Assembly: GCA_012523405.1 (NCBI GenBank)
Contig: JAAYIN010000094.1
Location: 1-38,146 of the forward strand
Origin: Clostridiales bacterium
GTDB taxonomy: Bacteria; Bacillota; Clostridia; Christensenellales; Aristaeellaceae
Direction: 5' to 3'
DNA length: 38,146 nucleotides
In this document: positions 408 through 38,146 of the stretch, one piece after another
Layout of the letters: each line of letters begins with the position of its first letter
Numbering within the stretch: the first letter of the stretch is position 1
Position numbers and translations under genes: made by a program
Notes under the pieces: generated by a model
What the model saw: only the letters and a program-made list of their open reading frames with translations
Told to the model about the DNA's origin: nothing
The model's database searches: none

Positions 408-995
408 ATGTCAGTTCTATATCATGGTAGCGATCAAAAAGGGCTAGAACGAATCATACCGCAGTTATCCACACATGGAAAAAGATATGTCTATGCAACA
501 AAATATCCAGCGATTGCCTTATTGTTCTTATGTCGATGGAATGATTACTTATTGACGCTTGAAACAGCCATGAAAGAGGATCGTTTGCAGATCAATCTTG
601 TGGAGCGTTATCCGAATGCCTTTGAAGAAATTTATGCCGGGAATAAAGGATACATATATACTTTGAAGGCAGAACAGTTTATTCATGATCCAAGCTGCTG
701 GGATATGGAATTGGTTTCAGAACATGAGGAAATGCCGATTTCGTGCACAGAGGTTAGTGATGTGCTAGCAGCACTGAAAACGCTTGAAGGATATGATGAA
801 ATAAGCTTGTATCATTATCCAAAGAGACCAAAGAGCATTCCCGATGATGAGTCTGATCTGATTGATAAATCAATTGAGCTTTATCAACTAAATGGCGATC
901 TTTACAATGCTAGGTATTGCATCGAAAAATTCCCGCACCTGAGGGACCGCCTTGCCTATAGGTTTAAGAAAGAGTTCAATATCGATAGTTTATAA
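408..995 (+). CDS. Conserved-looking hypothetical protein (195 aa)
   Basis: Soluble protein without signal peptide or membrane segment. I chose ATG 408 (MSVLYHGSDQ) because GGTGAG lies 4 bases upstream; GTG 399 behind AGGAAAG is an alternative, and a start near 348 is unlikely because it lies inside the tRNA terminator. The N-terminus carries a YHGS motif, then HGKRYVYAT and a run of small and hydrophobic residues. This Y-H-G-S ... Y-x-Y-A-T arrangement recalls small ADP-ribosyltransferase-fold families of DUF3990 or KptA type, but that is only a resemblance. The C-terminal third is rich in Asp, Glu and Tyr. No promoter of its own was recognised; the gene lies 44 bases behind the tRNA terminator. 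Its 3' end overlaps the antisense 3' end of the Cys-rich gene by 40 bases. Function unknown. Confidence 0.75.
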   Translation: MSVLYHGSDQKGLERIIPQLSTHGKRYVYATKYPAIALLFLCRWNDYLLTLETAMKEDRLQINLVERYPNAFEEIYAGNKGYIYTLKAEQFIHDPSCWDMELVSEHEEMPISCTEVSDVLAALKTLEGYDEISLYHYPKRPKSIPDDESDLIDKSIELYQLNGDLYNARYCIEKFPHLRDRLAYRFKKEFNIDSL

Positions 996-1522
996 GTAAA
1001 AGGAAGCAAACGCATAATTGTTTGCTTCCTTCGTTTATTTGTCGCACCATATCGCTTTTTTGTAGTGGTTGCATTATCAACTGTGATGACGCCCTTACCG
1101 ATGTATTCTACGCAGCGACTGTCCACGAACAGGATGTCGATGGGTACGTCGATCTTACAACGCACACGGGCGAAGCAAGGGCGGTCGCAAAGACGCTCGA
1201 CTGTTAGGTTGCGGATAACACCCTCTGTGGTGGTAGAGCGGCAGCTCTCAAATGTAATGGGGGTAACGGGGGCAGAGGTGGGGGTAACGGTTTCCGAAGC
1301 ATTGTCTTGGCAACCGCAGTTGCATCCACAGTTGTTACCGGCAACCATTGCGTAACTAGTGATGGTGATTTCTTTGTCGTCAAGCTGCTCCTGTTGAAGG
1401 CAACTGTCGTATACACGCTTAAGCTGCACACAGATTTTCTCTTGCAAACCGTCCAGTGCGCTACCTGAGATGGTACCCGGGCAGGAACAGGGATTGGCGT
1501 TTTTGTAGCTGAAAAATGACAT
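956..1522 (-). CDS. Cys-rich protein, presumed spore-surface component (188 aa)
   Basis: The start is ATG 1522 (MSFFSYKNANPCSCPG), 7 bases after AAGGAGG; the GTG two codons upstream is too close to that site. Features in order are an N-terminal CSC pair, a segment containing VQLKRVYDSCLQQEQLDD (about residues 32-50), a cluster NCGCNCGC (about 66-73), and a beta-rich part with ESCRSTTTEG and RLCDRPCFARVR. From memory, Clostridial proteins with this VQ-K-RV-DSC ... SCRSTTT ... LCDRP layout are uncharacterised and often continue further after the CVE-G segment. Here the protein changes character at about residue 155 and ends in a basic tail that reads through a terminator hairpin, so a C-terminal truncation is possible. 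A sigma-K-like promoter at 1600-1626 supports late mother-cell expression. Spore-surface function is inference. Confidence 0.7.
   Translation of the reverse strand: MSFFSYKNANPCSCPGTISGSALDGLQEKICVQLKRVYDSCLQQEQLDDKEITITSYAMVAGNNCGCNCGCQDNASETVTPTSAPVTPITFESCRSTTTEGVIRNLTVERLCDRPCFARVRCKIDVPIDILFVDSRCVEYIGKGVITVDNATTTKKRYGATNKRRKQTIMRLLPFTYKLSILNSFLNL
1001..1036 (+). terminator. Hairpin terminator between convergent genes
   Basis: Ten perfectly paired bases (GGAAGCAAAC, 1002-1011, with GTTTGCTTCC, 1020-1029), an 8-base loop and then TTCGTTTATTT. It serves the 408-995 gene. On the minus strand it falls inside the open frame of the Cys-rich gene. Confidence 0.75.
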
Positions 1523-1599
1523 TGGCACGCCTCCTTCTATGTGTCGGTCTTGTAGATGATGACCTTGCTTTGAATCATCCCTTATTGACCGCTCACTGT

Positions 1600-2251: not shown

Positions 2252-5200
2252 ATGCAGTATAACACGTCACAGCAACAGGGCTCGCCCAAAAGGCCGACAA
2301 AAAACTATGAGCCGCGCAAACGTAAGAGCCAAGTTCAGACCACGCTCCCAGCTTTGCTGTTGTTTGTGGCTTTGCTGGTAGTCATGTACTTGATATTCCC
2401 AAAGGAAGCTGGAAGGCATATTGGCACAAGTAAATATGATGGTCTGGTGATAAGCGAAGTAATGGCTGCGAACTCTTCGGCAGTGCCCGATGAAAACGGC
2501 GAATTTAGTGACTGGATGGAACTGTACAATGGTACGGGCGAAGATCTGGATATGGAAGGTATTATGATTACCAACCGAACAGATCGAATTACATTTCCGT
2601 TTCCGAGCTATTTGCTGAAGGCAGGGGAAAGGGTTGTCATTTTTGCTTCGGACAGTTATCAACTGGAGACGAGCAAACCCTTTCACGGCAAGTTCAAAAT
2701 ATCATCTGCAGGGGATCACTTATACCTGTACGATCCCAACATGTACCTGATTGATGAACTGGCTACGCCGACTCTTACCGCTGATAGCAGTTATGTTCTC
2801 AGCAGTATAGATGAAGATGGAATCAGAAAATACGAGACAACCACCTACTATAGCCCAGGCTATGAAAACACAGAGGATGGTTTTGTTTCTTATCGCGCAG
2901 CGAATGCCAGCGAAGCTGGTGCTTTGGTGATCAATGAAATTTCGCCTGATCCAAAAGTTGGCATACCCGATCAAGATGGAGAAATTGTCGATTGGGTGGA
3001 GCTAAGGAATACCACGGATGAGCCGATTTCTCTGGCTGGGTATTATCTGAGCGATAAAGAGAATAAGCCGATGAAATGGCGTTTTCCTGAAACCGCTGTT
3101 ATCCCTGCAAATGGATACTATCTGATCTATTGCAGCGGTAAAGGCATTTTACAGGATAATGGCATTGCACATACCAATTTCTCGATTAGTGCAGAGCGCG
3201 AAACGATCGTGCTTAGCGACAAATATGGTCGATTGATTGACCGTGCGACAGTTGAAAACGTACCTGAGGATTACTCAATGGGACGGGATGAAAATGACGA
3301 TTGGAAGCAATTCGATCTTTCAACGCCTGGTCAAAGCAATGATGCAAACGGACAGGCAAAAGCGGATCAGCTAATTCGTGCATATAACCCGATTGGTGTG
3401 TATATCACTGAGGTGATGGCGTCCAATGATTCAACTGCTATCGGTGTTTTAGGCATAACGACGGACTATGTTGAGCTCTACAATTCAACCTCAGCCGCTG
3501 TTGACATTTCTTTTTATGGTCTCAGCGACTCTCTTAAGCGCCCGCGTAGATGGCAGTTCCCCTCGGGGACTGTCATCCAGCCGGGTGAGTACAAGGTGAT
3601 TCATCTAGATGGACAAGCTAGTATCTCGACCACTACAGACATTCACACCAATTTCAAAATTGCCCGTGCAGGCGGAGAAACTATTTCTTTTTGTGATCCG
3701 TCAGGTAAAGTGCTGGACCGCATTCCTCTAAAGCTCATTCCAACAGATCACAGCTATGGCCGCACTCATGGCTATAGTGGTTTTTATTACTATGACGTTC
3801 CCACGCCTGGGCAGGAAAACGGCACCGGCTACTATGGCTACGCAATTACCCCTGCCTTCTCCATTCCAGGCGGCGAATATAAAAGCAGCATTCAACTGAG
3901 TATCTCAATTCCTGATAATAGCGATGTTTACTATACAACAGATGGATCAATCCCAACAAAAGAAAATGGAATCTTGTATCAAGGCGACATTTTCGAAATT
4001 AAAACAGTCAAGGCCATTAGAGCTAGGGCATTTGATAGGAGCGGGATGCTGCAACCAAGTGAAATCATCACGCAAACTTATTTGCTAAACCTTTACCATG
4101 CATTTCCCATTGTCAGCCTTGTCACCGATCCCGATGTACTCTGGAACGATGAAACGGGTATGCTGACAATTGGCCCCGATATCGATAAGAGCAGGGGCAT
4201 TCCATTCAAAAACGCCATCTATCGGCAAGTGAAGGATAAGCTTGGCGCTAGCCCCGGCTATGTGGAGATATACACAAAGGAAGGCACCCAGCTTATCAGC
4301 CAAGGGATAGAGTTTAAATTGCAAGGACAAAACAGCTTGGACTATCCGCAGAAATCCTTTAAAGTGAAGGCGAAGGCCAAGTATGGTGCTAAGTACTTTG
4401 CGGCAAGCCTCTTTGAGGATCGCCCCTTCACAGAGTATAAGAGTTTTGCTCTGCGTATCAGCGGCAATGACAGTGCTTGGACGCGGTTTAACGACGGCTT
4501 CCAAGGCCGCCTGATGGATCTGTTCAATGAGGTGACAGACACGCCCACTACCGTCATTCACCAAGCATGGAAGCCTGTGGTGGTGTACCTCAACGGCGTA
4601 TACTGGGGTCATTACAACATGCGCGAGCGCGTTGATCGCTACTTTGTTGCCCAGCATGAGGGACTTTCGCTTGATGAAGCGGACGAAATGGATATTCTGG
4701 AAGCGAGCAGTACAGTTAGCTACGGCTCAAACACAGAGTATAAGGCGATGATCAAGAAGGTAAAGGGGATGTCCCCCGGTACCAATGAGGCGGATTTGCA
4801 GTATATTCTGGACAATATCGATGTCGATAATTACTTTGATTACATGGCATTTGAAATGTTCTTTGGTAACTCTGACCCCGGTAATATCCGTTTCTATAAG
4901 CTCAAGGCAGAAGGTTCAAAATGGAAATGGATATTATACGATGTTGATTACGGATTCTTTAAGAGCGGCTTTGACAGCCCAATGAGTTATCTAAAAGCAA
5001 AGGGAGCTGGCGACAAATATATCGATAATACGCTTATCCTTAAGCTGCTTGAAAACAAGGAAATGCAGAATAAGTTCCTGACGCGTCTTGGTGAGATCTA
5101 TCAGTTATTTACAACTGATTACATGATCAGTGTGTTTGATGAAATGGCTGCAATTCTTGAACCTGAAATGCAAATGCATTTTAGTAGATGGGCAGAGGAG

Positions 5201-5431
5201 AATGACAGGGCAATCAACTCTGACTCGCCGCTCACGCCTGAAGGTGCAATGCGTTACTGGAATACACGTCTTGACTTTACCCATAATGTGCTGAAAAAAC
5301 GCCCCAGATACTTTTATGAGATGGTTCAAGAAAAATTTGAGACTACTGATCAGGAAATGATAGAGTACTTTGGCGTTAAGCCAGAACTTCCCAGTGATGC
5401 TATTTATACGGAAGGCAGAAAGTGGCGTTAA
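2252..5431 (+). CDS. cotH: CotH-family protein with three lamin-tail domains (1059 aa)
   Basis: Membrane-anchored, largely extracellular protein. A basic N-terminus (about 1-30) precedes one membrane segment at 31-49. Three lamin-tail-like domains follow near 64-200, 223-360 and 382-520, each opening with a V/I-x-E-hydrophobic strand and D-W/Y-hydrophobic-E-L-x-N. A chitobiase C-terminal-type domain (about 537-612, VYYTTDGSIPT) precedes the CotH domain (about 615-1000). CotH landmarks are KLQGQNS, SFALRISGND, NMRERVD near 790 and D-V-D-Y-G-F near 895; CotH proteins are atypical kinases that phosphorylate spore-coat proteins in Bacillus. The start at ATG 2252 has AAGGAGG 8 bases upstream. The DUF4956 and VTC genes follow on the same strand, a grouping I recall from other bacteria. 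The substrate is unknown, and the sigma-A-like promoter leaves sporulation-specific use unproven. Confidence 0.9.
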   Translation: MQYNTSQQQGSPKRPTKNYEPRKRKSQVQTTLPALLLFVALLVVMYLIFPKEAGRHIGTSKYDGLVISEVMAANSSAVPDENGEFSDWMELYNGTGEDLDMEGIMITNRTDRITFPFPSYLLKAGERVVIFASDSYQLETSKPFHGKFKISSAGDHLYLYDPNMYLIDELATPTLTADSSYVLSSIDEDGIRKYETTTYYSPGYENTEDGFVSYRAANASEAGALVINEISPDPKVGIPDQDGEIVDWVELRNTTDEPISLAGYYLSDKENKPMKWRFPETAVIPANGYYLIYCSGKGILQDNGIAHTNFSISAERETIVLSDKYGRLIDRATVENVPEDYSMGRDENDDWKQFDLSTPGQSNDANGQAKADQLIRAYNPIGVYITEVMASNDSTAIGVLGITTDYVELYNSTSAAVDISFYGLSDSLKRPRRWQFPSGTVIQPGEYKVIHLDGQASISTTTDIHTNFKIARAGGETISFCDPSGKVLDRIPLKLIPTDHSYGRTHGYSGFYYYDVPTPGQENGTGYYGYAITPAFSIPGGEYKSSIQLSISIPDNSDVYYTTDGSIPTKENGILYQGDIFEIKTVKAIRARAFDRSGMLQPSEIITQTYLLNLYHAFPIVSLVTDPDVLWNDETGMLTIGPDIDKSRGIPFKNAIYRQVKDKLGASPGYVEIYTKEGTQLISQGIEFKLQGQNSLDYPQKSFKVKAKAKYGAKYFAASLFEDRPFTEYKSFALRISGNDSAWTRFNDGFQGRLMDLFNEVTDTPTTVIHQAWKPVVVYLNGVYWGHYNMRERVDRYFVAQHEGLSLDEADEMDILEASSTVSYGSNTEYKAMIKKVKGMSPGTNEADLQYILDNIDVDNYFDYMAFEMFFGNSDPGNIRFYKLKAEGSKWKWILYDVDYGFFKSGFDSPMSYLKAKGAGDKYIDNTLILKLLENKEMQNKFLTRLGEIYQLFTTDYMISVFDEMAAILEPEMQMHFSRWAEENDRAINSDSPLTPEGAMRYWNTRLDFTHNVLKKRPRYFYEMVQEKFETTDQEMIEYFGVKPELPSDAIYTEGRKWR

Positions 5432-5490
5432 TCATTTTGATGAGTAACCATCCAAACTAACCTATAGCGATCTCTTATGCCGTATAAATG

Positions 5491-5519
5491 TTGACAAATG
5501 TCATTGGCTATCGTACCAT
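5491..5519 (+). promoter_or_regulatory. Possible sigma-A promoter of the DUF4956-VTC pair
   Basis: A perfect TTGACA (5491-5496), 17 bp, then TACCAT (5514-5519), a four-of-six -10. It lies in the 184-base gap behind cotH, so the two downstream genes could be transcribed separately as well as from the cotH promoter. The rest of the gap shows nothing recognisable. Confidence 0.5.
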
Positions 5520-5615
5520 GCTAGAGTCAATGAAACTTACATGATCGCAGAATAAATGATTGGTTCATCACTTACTTAGGTAGGTATTGAAAACAACGAA
5601 GGAGGCACCCATCCA

Positions 5616-6314
5616 ATGAAGTTTTCCTCTCTTATGACAAGTACAAGTGCTGCTAGTATTATCAATACAACTGGCTTGGCTGCACAGTTTAAGAGCATTG
5701 TACCAGCTGACCTGTTTATTGCGCTAGGCATTGCATTTCTGGTAGGTCTTATCATTGCATTTGTATACCGTAAAACCTATCGAGGCGTTCTGTACAGCCC
5801 TACTTTTACCCTAACGCTCATTATGCTTACACTGATAACCACGCCTGTGGTTATGTGTATTAAGAGCGATATCGCGCTGTCAATGGGTATGGTTGGTGCA
5901 TTGTCAATCGTTCGTTTCCGTACCGCAGTTAAAGATCCGCTGGATACAGCGTATATGTTCTGGTCGCTGACAATGGGTATTTTGCTTGGTGCAGGCTTAC
6001 ATCTGGTTGCCATCATCGTTGCACTCTGCATTTCAGTGATTATGTTCATTTTGACTTTTGTCAAGATAGGTGAACCCAATACCTATCTGCTTGTTGTGCA
6101 CTATGACGAGTATTGCGAAAGCGCGATCAACTCGGAGATCAAGCGCGGCGTGAAAAACTCTAAGCTTCGTTCCAAGACGTTAACCCGTGCAGGTGCCGAA
6201 ATGACATATGAAATCCGCCTCAATGACCGTCATGAGATCGTTACTCGGATGCTTGATATTGAAGGCGTCCATGATGCAACACTTGTAGCTTGCCAGAGTG
6301 AGGTCGGAGCTTAA
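5616..6314 (+). CDS. DUF4956 membrane protein (232 aa)
   Basis: Integral membrane protein of the DUF4956 family. After a Ser/Thr-rich N-terminus there are about four membrane segments (near 31-50, 66-84, 88-105 and 122-150), with the family landmark SIVRFRTAVKDPLDTAY between them. A soluble C-terminal domain of about 75 residues follows and looks like a small ferredoxin- or ACT-type fold (YEIRLNDRHEIVTRMLDIEGV). The family is typically found beside VTC-domain proteins, as here, and its molecular function is not established. GAAGGAGG stands 10 bases before ATG 5616. Seventy-one bases separate it from the VTC gene, and a shared transcript is likely. A role in passing or accepting the product of its VTC partner at the membrane is a guess. 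Confidence 0.87.
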   Translation: MKFSSLMTSTSAASIINTTGLAAQFKSIVPADLFIALGIAFLVGLIIAFVYRKTYRGVLYSPTFTLTLIMLTLITTPVVMCIKSDIALSMGMVGALSIVRFRTAVKDPLDTAYMFWSLTMGILLGAGLHLVAIIVALCISVIMFILTFVKIGEPNTYLLVVHYDEYCESAINSEIKRGVKNSKLRSKTLTRAGAEMTYEIRLNDRHEIVTRMLDIEGVHDATLVACQSEVGA

Positions 6315-6385
6315 GGACAAGATTGCGGGCCGATGTTTCGTCCTGCAGTTTGCTTTTTGGATATCAAAAATAAGGGGGCTCACTC

Positions 6386-7090
6386 ATGGCGATTTCGGTA
6401 CCTCTTCGGCATGAGCTGAAGTTTTATATCAATCAGTTGGAGTATGAAGTGTTATCGCGCGTCCTAGACCGCGTACTATCGCGCGATCCCAATGGGGATG
6501 AGAACAATGAATACCACATACGTTCTCTATACTTCGATACGATTTTCAATGATGCGGTTTTGGATAAAGTGAACGGTGTGAAAAACCGTGATAAGTATCG
6601 CATTAGAATCTACAACTATTCAGATGAATTTATTCGCATGGAATGCAAAACAAAAGTTGGATCGCTTATTTCCAAGCGCTCTCTCGCCATTCCAAAGCTT
6701 CTTGCAGAGCAGTTGATTGCAGGTGACCCAACAGGTCTTGAACGCACCCATAGCGGGCTGCTGCGGGATGTGTATAGGGAAATGAAGCTGAACCTATTAC
6801 GCCCTGTGGTGATTGTTGACTACGTGCGAGAAGCGTACTTGCATCCTGCTGAGGAAGTTCGTATCACATTTGACAAGCAGCTTCATACAGGACTGGGATC
6901 AACTGATTTATTCAATCCATACATCCCAACCGTATCACCTTTCAATCATAACAATATCATTCTGGAAGTAAAGTACAATCGGGTTATGCCATCCTATATT
7001 CGAGATATTCTATGCACTTATGTACATAGCGCACAAAACAGTGCAATATCAAAATATGTATGGTGCCGTAACTTTGAAGGATTTGAATAA
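6386..7090 (+). CDS. VTC-domain protein, polyphosphate polymerase-like (234 aa)
   Basis: Soluble single-domain protein of the VTC type, the tunnel-fold family that in yeast Vtc4 makes polyphosphate from ATP. Basic and acidic residues expected to line the tunnel are visible: RHELKF near the N-terminus, KYRIRIY (about 72-78), MECKTK (about 90-95), SKRS (about 101-104), VIVDYVREAY, RITFD, and ILEVKYN near the C-terminus. The length fits a free-standing bacterial VTC domain. AAGGGGG precedes ATG 6386 by 8 bases. It ends the cotH-DUF4956-VTC operon at a strong terminator. Whether it makes polyphosphate or another polymer in this bacterium is unknown. Its location beside a CotH kinase suggests a cell- or spore-envelope job. 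Confidence 0.87.
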   Translation: MAISVPLRHELKFYINQLEYEVLSRVLDRVLSRDPNGDENNEYHIRSLYFDTIFNDAVLDKVNGVKNRDKYRIRIYNYSDEFIRMECKTKVGSLISKRSLAIPKLLAEQLIAGDPTGLERTHSGLLRDVYREMKLNLLRPVVIVDYVREAYLHPAEEVRITFDKQLHTGLGSTDLFNPYIPTVSPFNHNNIILEVKYNRVMPSYIRDILCTYVHSAQNSAISKYVWCRNFEGFE

Positions 7091-36312: not shown

Positions 36313-37302
36313 TCAGAAGTTAGATTGTTTGGGGAGGAGAGGGGAAAGAGCAAGCTTTGTGATGCCGAGCATGTAGTCTCTTTCTAGTGATTCATCCGCA
36401 ATGATTTCAGGTAGGGAATGATGGTTTTGACAAGTTTTTTTGATGGCTTTGGATAAATGACTTTGATTGAGATTTTCGCGGTACACAACAATCCTATCGG
36501 GAGCAAGCAATGCGTTGATTATTTGGATAAACAGTGCAATGATCTCTTCAATAGGTTGATCGGGCTTTTTCCAATTGACAGATATGGGTAAGGCGGAAAT
36601 CTCGCCAGCCATTCCCATTTTGCCTCTAATCAATCGTTGTCCCAATAAAATGCCCCCGCCGGGCGGCATTCCCATTGGGAAATAAATGGACACGGTACAT
36701 TCGTTGTCGTGTAAGCAAGCTCGATCTGCATAGCCATATACCGCAGCATTCATGTCATTTTCAATCATGATTTCTTGTTTTGTTGCGGTCTTAAGCATTT
36801 CATAAAGAGAATCTCCAACCAAATCTGCAACATCACAAAAGAGAATGTTACTATGAAGCGCTTGACCTGGTATGCCTACTGAGATTGATTTGATTAATGA
36901 ATCATTCTGACATTTTTCTTTGGCTATGGCGACGATTTGATTTCTTGCTTCGCTCTCAAGTATTACGCACTCGCAAGTTAAGATTTTACCTTGAAGATCA
37001 ACGGTGATGGTATATAGCATATATACTTGATTGGTTTGCAGCACATATAGACCAAGAGCGTGGGCATAGTCAGCATTGAAGCGATAGACCTGTGCGGGTC
37101 GGCCGCCGCGGGAGGGCATAAGCTTGTCGACTGTCACTTCGTTATTTAATGCCAGTTCAGACATGAGCGAACCAAGCGTTACGGTGCTTAACTTACTTTC
37201 GTTTGCCAGCTGTGTTTTTGTTGCGGTACTGAACTTGCGCATTAGTTTGCGTATATGATTAAGGTTTCTTTGTTTGATTTGTTGACCGGGCAACTCAACC
37301 AT
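36313..37302 (-). CDS. ROK-family (NagC/XylR-type) transcriptional regulator (329 aa)
   Basis: An N-terminal winged helix (about 10-70, IKQRNLNHIRKLMRKFS...KTQLANESKLSTVTLGSLMSEL, then SRGGRPAQVYRFN) precedes a ROK sugar-binding domain (about 75-320). The phosphate-binding and sugar motifs are eroded compared with ROK kinases: IENDMNAAVYGYA is kept, GGGILLGQRLIRGKMGMAGEI lacks the usual Gly-Ala end, and the zinc-binding CxCGxxGC segment is missing. The protein is therefore a regulator, not a kinase. GGAGG precedes ATG 37302. First gene of the ROK-MFS-GH127 operon, directly behind a consensus promoter with a 44-bp palindrome, so it very probably represses its own operon until a sugar such as arabinose binds. 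Confidence 0.92.
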   Translation of the reverse strand: MVELPGQQIKQRNLNHIRKLMRKFSTATKTQLANESKLSTVTLGSLMSELALNNEVTVDKLMPSRGGRPAQVYRFNADYAHALGLYVLQTNQVYMLYTITVDLQGKILTCECVILESEARNQIVAIAKEKCQNDSLIKSISVGIPGQALHSNILFCDVADLVGDSLYEMLKTATKQEIMIENDMNAAVYGYADRACLHDNECTVSIYFPMGMPPGGGILLGQRLIRGKMGMAGEISALPISVNWKKPDQPIEEIIALFIQIINALLAPDRIVVYRENLNQSHLSKAIKKTCQNHHSLPEIIADESLERDYMLGITKLALSPLLPKQSNF

Positions 37303-37319: not shown

Positions 37320-37363
37320 CATATATAATTAAGAGACTTAATAAAGTCTCTTAATTATATATG
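37320..37363. promoter_or_regulatory. 44-bp palindromic operator before the ROK gene
   Basis: Perfect 20-base arms (37320-37339 and 37344-37363), core ATTAAGAGACTT, around a 4-base centre AATA. The distal arm contains the -10 box of the ROK promoter and the other arm ends 17 bases before the ATG, so bound repressor would cover the -10 and the transcription start. Confidence 0.8.
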
Positions 37364-37469: not shown

Positions 37470-37496
37470 ACGTGAGTGGTTTGATAGCATAAAGTG
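37470..37496 (+). promoter_or_regulatory. Sigma-K-like promoter of the Cys-repeat gene
   Basis: AC (37470-37471), 16 bp, CATAAAGTG (37488-37496): matches AC / CATA-N3-TA at all but the last base. The leader would be about 88 bases. Same layout as the promoter of the other Cys-rich gene at 1600-1626. Confidence 0.4.
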
Positions 37497-37590
37497 ATCG
37501 TAGCAGGAGAGGAGAGCATTAGCGTTTGCTGCACCATGTGGTGAGAATGCTCATGTCTTGCTAGCAAGATCGATTGAAAGGTGATTTATA

Positions 37591-38146
37591 ATGCGATCAA
37601 ATACTTGTATAAATAATAACTTGGCCGATGCTAATGGTTTCATTCCTATTACAGCTTCAACGGAGAATACGACATGCACTAATTGCGGTTGCGGCTGTGG
37701 ATGTACAGGAACAAGAAATAGCTGCGGTTGCAATACATGCAGCAATTGTGCTGTGCTACGCTCAGGTTGCAGCACATGCGGATGCAATGATTGCGATAAC
37801 AACTGTACAACATGCACAGCAACCCGCTCTGGGTGCAACAATTGCGGCTGTAACGACTGCGATTGTGATTGCACAACATGCACAGCGACGCGCTCGGGTT
37901 GCAACAATTGCGGCTGTAACGACTGCGATTGTGAGTGCACAACATGCGGAACAACTCGCTCGGGTTGCAACAATTGCGGCTGTAACGACTGCGATTGTGA
38001 TTGCACGACATGCGGAACAATGCGCTCTGGGTGCAACAATTGCGGCTGTAACGACTGCGATTGTGATTGCACGACATGCGGAACAACTCGCTCTGGCTGC
38101 ACAACCTGCGGCTGCAATGACTGTGATAACAACTGCGCGACATGCA
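37591..38146 (+). CDS. Cysteine-repeat protein, open at the window edge (185+ aa)
   Basis: ATG 37591 follows GAAAGGTGAT by about 5 bases and opens a frame without stop to the right edge. The first 27 residues are Cys-poor (MRSNTCINNNLADANGFIPI...), with no signal peptide. A Cys-Gly stretch follows (CTNCGCGCGCTG), then from residue 57 six 22-residue repeats, the last cut by the edge. By direct count 50 of 185 residues are Cys; Asn, Asp, Thr and Gly make up most of the rest, with no Lys at all. A full repeat has Cys at positions 4, 7, 9, 12, 14, 16 and 19. The composition fits a metal-binding (metallothionein-like) or disulfide-crosslinked protein. A sigma-K-like promoter and the lack of a signal favour a spore coat or exosporium protein comparable in style, not sequence, to Clostridial CdeC/CdeM. 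A repeat-type peptide precursor cannot be excluded without the downstream genes. I recognise no named family. Confidence 0.8.
   Translation, partial: MRSNTCINNNLADANGFIPITASTENTTCTNCGCGCGCTGTRNSCGCNTCSNCAVLRSGCSTCGCNDCDNNCTTCTATRSGCNNCGCNDCDCDCTTCTATRSGCNNCGCNDCDCECTTCGTTRSGCNNCGCNDCDCDCTTCGTMRSGCNNCGCNDCDCDCTTCGTTRSGCTTCGCNDCDNNCATC
37759..38146 (+). repeat. Tandem 66-bp in-frame repeats (six visible)
   Basis: Units start at 37759, 37825, 37891, 37957, 38023 and 38089, exactly 66 bases apart, each beginning with codons for Arg-Ser-Gly-Cys. Units 2 to 5 are nearly identical in DNA, including silent positions. Units 1 and 6 carry Asp-Asn-Asn where the others have Asp-Cys-Asp or Asp-Cys-Glu, and so have six Cys, not seven. 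The array continues past the window. Confidence 0.95.

Follow-up and report, generated by a model that had tools for sequence, protein, structure and literature searches.

A Cys-rich repeat frame at the contig end

The window, by which we mean the whole 38,146-nucleotide stretch that was analyzed, is an entire contig (G000:C66) of a 3.56-Mb genome that is 96% complete and assembled in 130 contigs. At its end lies an open reading frame on the forward strand (37591-38145) that begins with ATG, encodes 185 amino acids of which 50 (27%) are Cys, and has no stop codon up to the end of the contig. These values were recomputed from the frame and agree with an earlier note made on this DNA. The sequence AAAGGTGA before the ATG was judged by eye to resemble a ribosome-binding site. 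The features of this region are as follows.

36313-37302, minus strand: ROK-family regulator, divergent neighbour of the Cys-rich gene (domain scan of neighbours)
37320-37363, no strand: 19-bp inverted repeat, its arms 6 bp apart, located between the Cys-rich gene and the ROK regulator (by eye)
37470-37498, plus strand: candidate sigmaK-like promoter, AC, 16 bases, CATAAAGTG (core layout of the relatives, modest matrix score)
37591-38146, plus strand: 5' part of the Cys-rich repeat ORF (185 whole codons, open at the contig end)
37591-37758, plus strand: N-terminal region with a GFIPI motif as in some cotJ fusions, then an irregular Cys-rich stretch (NCGCGCGC...) (profile match, weaker with Cys masked)
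37759-38146, plus strand: repeat array with five complete units of 66 bp (22 residues) and a truncated sixth (unit comparison)

Tandem Repeats Finder at its default score reported the in-frame 66-bp array as the sole array in the window (37807-38127, 4.9 copies, 90% matches, no indels, score 465), and comparison of the units placed their starts at 37759, 37825, 37891, 37957, 38023 and 38089. In each of the four middle units, seven Cys follow the pattern C-x2-C-x-C-x2-C-x-C-x-C-x2-C. The first unit and the cut last unit have six, with the same one absent from both. When the five full units were compared and all pairs summed, we counted 46 synonymous versus 35 non-synonymous codon differences, and 67 of the 109 base differences fell at third codon positions. 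Adjacent Cys residues were absent from the frame (0 CC pairs seen versus 13.3 expected). The complement of the frame is likewise open (197 aa), as had been remarked before. The structure prediction that the earlier note had proposed as a check was uninformative, since AlphaFold2 run on the single sequence gave a mean pLDDT of 37.1 and no confident fold.

The inverted repeat upstream of the gene is perhaps the operator of the ROK regulator. When the 16 other genomes of the genus were searched, none gave a match to this regulator with an E-value of 1e-40 or lower, and regulator synteny was absent.

Cys-armed cotJ fusions in related genomes

Searches with the window protein itself returned no convincing relatives. 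No Pfam or NCBIfam family matched the frame up to E 1, and none was found among plasmids, phages or the sequences of solved structures (PDB). A peptide pattern matched 41 stretches in viral_contigs and 355 in genome_contigs, none of which passed tblastn, where the low-complexity filter may hide relatives. A search of 60 genomes gave a match in one, the source genome itself. Fifteen further genomes with weak matches (E 4.2e-4 to 0.075) were obtained from 308 family genomes; we rejected these as chance because the Cys-containing frames in the fetched stretches were by eye unlike the window frame. A DNA search of the source genome for a second copy or a continuation of the repeat on its other contigs yielded only matches of 15-32 bases.

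We also searched the 308 family genomes for the codon pattern of the peptide CGCNDC and found it in six, namely six times in the source genome and once in each of five others. The matches in G100, G143, G252 and G294 were rejected, as their frames are only 22-66 residues long and contain no repeats of this kind. The fifth foreign match, in a congener (G006), fell in a Cys-rich frame open at a contig edge. The repeat of this frame reappears with 93-98% identity where a second G006 contig begins, and we infer from the common repeat that the two contigs adjoin. On the second contig the repeat frame runs on into a CotJA-like segment and closes with a CotJB domain; cotJC (Pfam Mn_catalase, E 1.3e-55) is the gene that follows. 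A single open frame composed of a Cys-rich arm, a CotJA-like segment and CotJB was present in six congeners besides G006 and in a second genus of the family. Pfam detected CotJB in the three fusions scanned (E 4.2e-17, 1.6e-14 and 7.4e-17), while CotJA was above the cut-off in one of them (8.9e-6) and below it in two. A match of an NCBIfam adhesin model to the G014 fusion was considered spurious (22.3 of 999 bits, far under the cut-off).

CotJC was found in 13 of the 17 genomes of the genus. All 13 also have the CotJA-CotJB tail, of which G010 has the CotJB part only; G000, G005, G007 and G012 had neither. Twelve of these 13 have a CotJA-CotJB fusion as the frame preceding cotJC, with the CotJA-like segment recognised by eye in most and Pfam run on G014, G016 and G006. 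Seven of the 12 fusions have a Cys-rich arm, six on single contigs (G014, G016, G001, G009, G002 and G011) and one on two contigs (G006), while five lack it (G013, G004, G008, G003 and G015). Across the family, the CotJB profile (PF12652) matched 50 of 308 genomes, 49 of them above the cut-off. We inspected 33 CotJB-like loci, many of them chosen for long frames, and 23 had at least 19 Cys in the frame: seven in the genus of the window, 15 in genus g70 and one in g15, with three of the 23 (G006, G237 and G238) cut by contig edges. The 17 CotJB-match genomes left out of the 33 had open frames of at most 151 aa, save one below-cut-off match (975 aa). Such a Cys-rich frame was present in 15 of the 16 g70 genomes with a CotJB match, the frames of G237 and G238 being cut at contig starts within the repeat. 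The sixteenth g70 genome (G244, L092) has a CotJA-CotJB fusion with a long N-part and only 3 Cys in the frame; its Cys arm may have been lost or replaced.

In genome_contigs, the tail was matched by 70 loci, which overlap the family-genome set (e.g. L122/G014, L123/G016 and L127/G006), and 18 of these have a long Cys-rich N-part, defined as at least 60 residues with more than 6% Cys. All 18 are MAG records titled Clostridia or Clostridiales, and the titles of 10 name a site, in each case a part of the hindgut (cecum, colon or rectum) of a deer, goat or sheep. Four other loci (L156, L160, L161 and L165) resemble the fusions in having a Cys-rich N-terminus on CotJB; there, however, the N-part is a short leader of only 38-47 residues with 6-7 Cys (15-17% Cys). 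Among the matches listed from open-licence papers, none describes in its title or opening abstract lines a CotJ protein that is fused or rich in Cys.

The arms themselves differ widely. For the relatives with more regular arms, autocorrelation gave best periods of 19, 18, 30, 45, 34, 30 and 26 residues, as against 22 in the window, and it gave no clear period in several others. The arms of 17 relatives contain 12-22% Cys, and CC pairs in the pooled 17 were rarer than expected (16 seen versus 69.5 expected). Since Cys richness is kept and adjacent Cys are avoided despite the differing arms, it is a large number of spaced thiols that is retained rather than a sequence, and the arms vary from one species to another. 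The earlier note had named a lack of homologues keeping the Cys pattern as grounds against its reading, and this applies by half: the same 22-residue pattern was absent from all relatives found, but their Cys richness and avoidance of adjacent Cys parallel the window frame.

The cotJC gene is split in three congeners, by ~10.8 kb in G001 (L104, 6126-17585), by ~9 kb in G016 (L103, 1600-11337) and onto two contigs in G009 (C107 and C16). In G001 a serine recombinase lies beside the second cotJC half (Resolvase E 2e-22, Recombinase E 1e-27) and CTTGCAGCAGAG was seen by eye at both junctions; the insert is a candidate skin-like intervening element. No paper on intervening elements among the literature matches listed mentions cotJC.

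Probable placement of the window gene among the cotJ fusions

We take the sense (plus) frame as the coding strand because the Cys-rich frame of the relatives leads straight into the CotJ domains, and the earlier view that the frame is a real gene is likewise supported by relatives with Cys-rich arms fused to CotJA/CotJB beside cotJC. It is extremely unlikely that the frame is an assembly or chance artefact or that the gene lies on the opposite strand: the frame does stand at a contig edge with both strands open, but the array is in frame with a third-position bias, and relatives on single contigs carry the CotJ domains in the same frame.

The N-terminus may link the window gene to this family. 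When 3396 distinct N-termini were ranked with a profile built from those of G014 and G016, the window gene came immediately behind a training protein (E 1.8e-4), with other cotJ fusions ranking behind it, and a profile of 17 proteins placed it directly behind the 17 family entries (E 1.2e-4). With six members and no masking, the profile scored the window below one CotJB that has a short Cys leader and is not a long-armed fusion; the composition correction of HMMER was off in all unmasked runs. When Cys was masked and the correction was on, the window ranked fourth with the two-member profile (E 0.25) and sixth with the six-member profile (E 0.18), with only family members ahead in both, while with the 17-protein profile it ranked 25th (E 4.9) with seven unrelated N-termini ahead. 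The test is partly circular because the small training sets were picked after the motif had been noticed by eye. This motif, GF(I/V)P(I/V), and the Cys-rich stretch are present in the window; several Cys-armed members do not have the motif.

The CotJB domain (PF12652) is not in the window frame, which is cut before the expected place of the domain, and the place that corresponds to cotJC, directly downstream in congeners, is beyond the contig end. The contig breaks inside the repeat, as it does in G006, G237 and G238. The source genome encodes the coat gene SpoIVA, while CotJB, CotJC and the CotJAB tail were not detected in it by the genus searches or the PF12652 profile, nor did it give a match when six genomes were searched with PF05067. 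This is expected if the break falls inside the window gene; it could also be a real loss, since three other congeners are without both genes and no such break is shown there.

We also compared promoters. Each of the 17 relatives whose start could be placed (start codons picked by eye) has one CATANNNTG located 54-94 bases upstream, and in 15 of the 17 an AC lies exactly 16 bases before it, the spacing being taken from the printed sites. Passages of one study state that the sigmaE and sigmaK promoters of C. difficile have a very similar -10 and that the -35 of sigmaK is AC (PMC3789822). The two cotJ-like operons of that species are described as sigmaK-dependent (PMC8745062, PMC3789822), and the layout in the relatives fits sigmaK. 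In the window, the core AC-16-CATAAAGTG has two matches on both strands of the 38 kb, one of them the candidate at 37470. Its CATA is 103 bases before the ATG, outside the 54-94 range of the relatives. The full 17-relative matrix ranked the site 102nd of 76,220 positions, a score reached in 179 of 2000 shuffles, and with the g70-only matrix 37 of 2000 shuffles reached it. The genus-only matrix favoured another site and did no better than shuffles (1032 of 2000). A sigmaK-type promoter for the window gene is therefore compatible with these data but not proven.

Taken together, the comparisons make it likely that the window frame is the 5' part of a cotJ-type spore-coat gene, of which the CotJ tail, sigmaK timing and disulfide chemistry would be predicted parts. 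Its product is probably the N-terminal arm of a longer fusion and not a stand-alone protein.

The main alternative is a stand-alone Cys-rich protein of the coat or exosporium, comparable to CdeC and CsxA, which would have no CotJ tail and would share with the fusions only its composition and perhaps a sporulation promoter. We regard this as fairly unlikely. In its favour, no tail is visible in the window frame, masking Cys leaves little likeness at the N-terminus, several spore formers are known to have Cys-rich coat proteins that are unrelated in sequence (PMC7333573), and the upstream neighbours differ from those of cotJ loci. As to these neighbours, a GH127 gene near the window gene has 49-57% identity to the gene directly downstream of cotJC in G014 and G016, where it is placed on the opposite side of cotJ relative to the window gene; the eight other window proteins of the nine compared had no match in cotJ loci. 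Against a stand-alone protein, the sole other genome with the codon pattern in a Cys-rich frame has a cotJ gene, although such searches could miss stand-alone proteins, and there is no CotJB elsewhere in the source genome. The 5' part of a cotJ fusion remains our preferred reading of the frame.

Proposed role of the Cys-rich arm

CotJA, CotJB and CotJC are inner-coat proteins encoded by one operon in B. subtilis, and the relatives resemble this system in their CotJB domain, CotJA-like segment and directly adjoining cotJC. They differ from CotJA and CotJB elsewhere in being one protein with a long, species-variable N-terminal Cys arm; the window gene would carry its CotJ part beyond the contig end. 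We know of no assigned role for CotJA. The function of CotJB is given as 'nd' in a table of PMC8745062.

We propose that the missing 3' half of the window gene encodes CotJA-CotJB with cotJC behind it, and that sigmaK would transcribe the gene late in the mother cell. The protein would be seated in the coat next to CotJC by its CotJ tail, and the arm, in which roughly every fourth residue is Cys, could be oxidised to disulfides within and between molecules and so form a dense covalent mesh. The arm would act as a crosslinking brush, by analogy with Cys-rich coat and exosporium proteins. Among these, CsxA, ExsY and CotY are Cys-rich and their arrays dissociate only with harsh reduction and boiling (PMC7333573), and CdeC has been suggested to be a crosslinker (PMC9542656). 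The window gene is like CdeC, CsxA, CotY and ExsY in its Cys-rich, presumably spore-surface nature and proposed disulfide crosslinking (PMC7333573, PMC9542656), and unlike them in the tandem repeats and 27% Cys of its frame and in the joining of its relatives' arms to CotJ domains. The frame matches no solved structure and, up to E 1, no family in Pfam or NCBIfam, libraries that may or may not include proteins of the CdeC, CsxA and CotY type. The spore-surface role guessed at in the earlier note is supported by way of the relatives, and the disulfides would be a prediction.

If crosslinking calls for numerous thiols at intervals but for no set sequence, the units would be free to be replaced or duplicated between species. 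Speculatively, the arms might make up a polymer that diverges fast, is particular to each species and is coupled to CotJC's peroxide chemistry. The fusion would set a flexible brush of thiols beside this catalase-like enzyme, so that surface oxidation hardens the coat when the spore of the anaerobe encounters oxygen and repeat turnover re-tunes the mesh density for each gut lineage; we offer this with low confidence.

The arm could instead be metallothionein-like, in line with the dense metal binding also guessed at in the earlier note, its CxC and CxxC thiolates binding Zn, Cu or Mn, for example for storage or for supply to CotJC, which would be compatible with a cotJ-type gene. We consider such an arm doubtful. 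In the window frame CxC or CxxC takes in 49 of the 50 Cys, and there are one aromatic residue, no His and no Lys; this spacing and the scarcity of aromatics are metallothionein-like features. In the 17 pooled relatives CxC was commoner than in shuffles (92 versus 68.8, z 3.3, a value inflated by the repeats). However, no metallothionein profile or other family matched the window frame up to E 1 and no relative with a solved structure was found. The relatives, moreover, contain aromatics and mostly also His, and their spacing is not conserved, CxxC being barely enriched (76 versus 68.6 in the pooled 17); therefore, no fixed metal site is evident. It is highly improbable that the frame encodes a precursor of a modified peptide product: a short Cys-poor leader is followed by repeated Cys-rich cores and the downstream side is outside the window, but the relatives are fused to CotJ coat domains with cotJC next, and no modifying enzyme was among the few neighbours scanned.

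Under the cotJ-type reading that we favour, the natural fusion of CotJA and CotJB to a Cys-rich arm beside cotJC suggests that both position crosslinking material near the catalase-like CotJC. The Cys-armed cotJ fusions would be a little-noticed group in gut Clostridia that may stitch the spore shell together. Since standard searches gave nothing for this protein and assemblies break in the repeats, spore crosslinkers of this kind may go unnoticed.

Two other observations were made in the window. A CotH-kinase protein with lamin-tail domains is encoded at 2252-7090 (plus strand), followed by a DUF4956 gene and a VTC-domain gene. At 956-1528 (minus strand) lies a gene for a Cys-containing protein (NNCGCNCGC) with no Pfam or NCBIfam match. 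Of all sites in the window, the one upstream of this gene at 1608 best fits the cotJ-fusion promoter matrix, scoring 20.5 versus 12.8 for the next site with all 17 relatives, 19.6 versus 10.6 with the genus only and 14.3 versus 13.3 with g70. This gene is perhaps a second sporulation gene.
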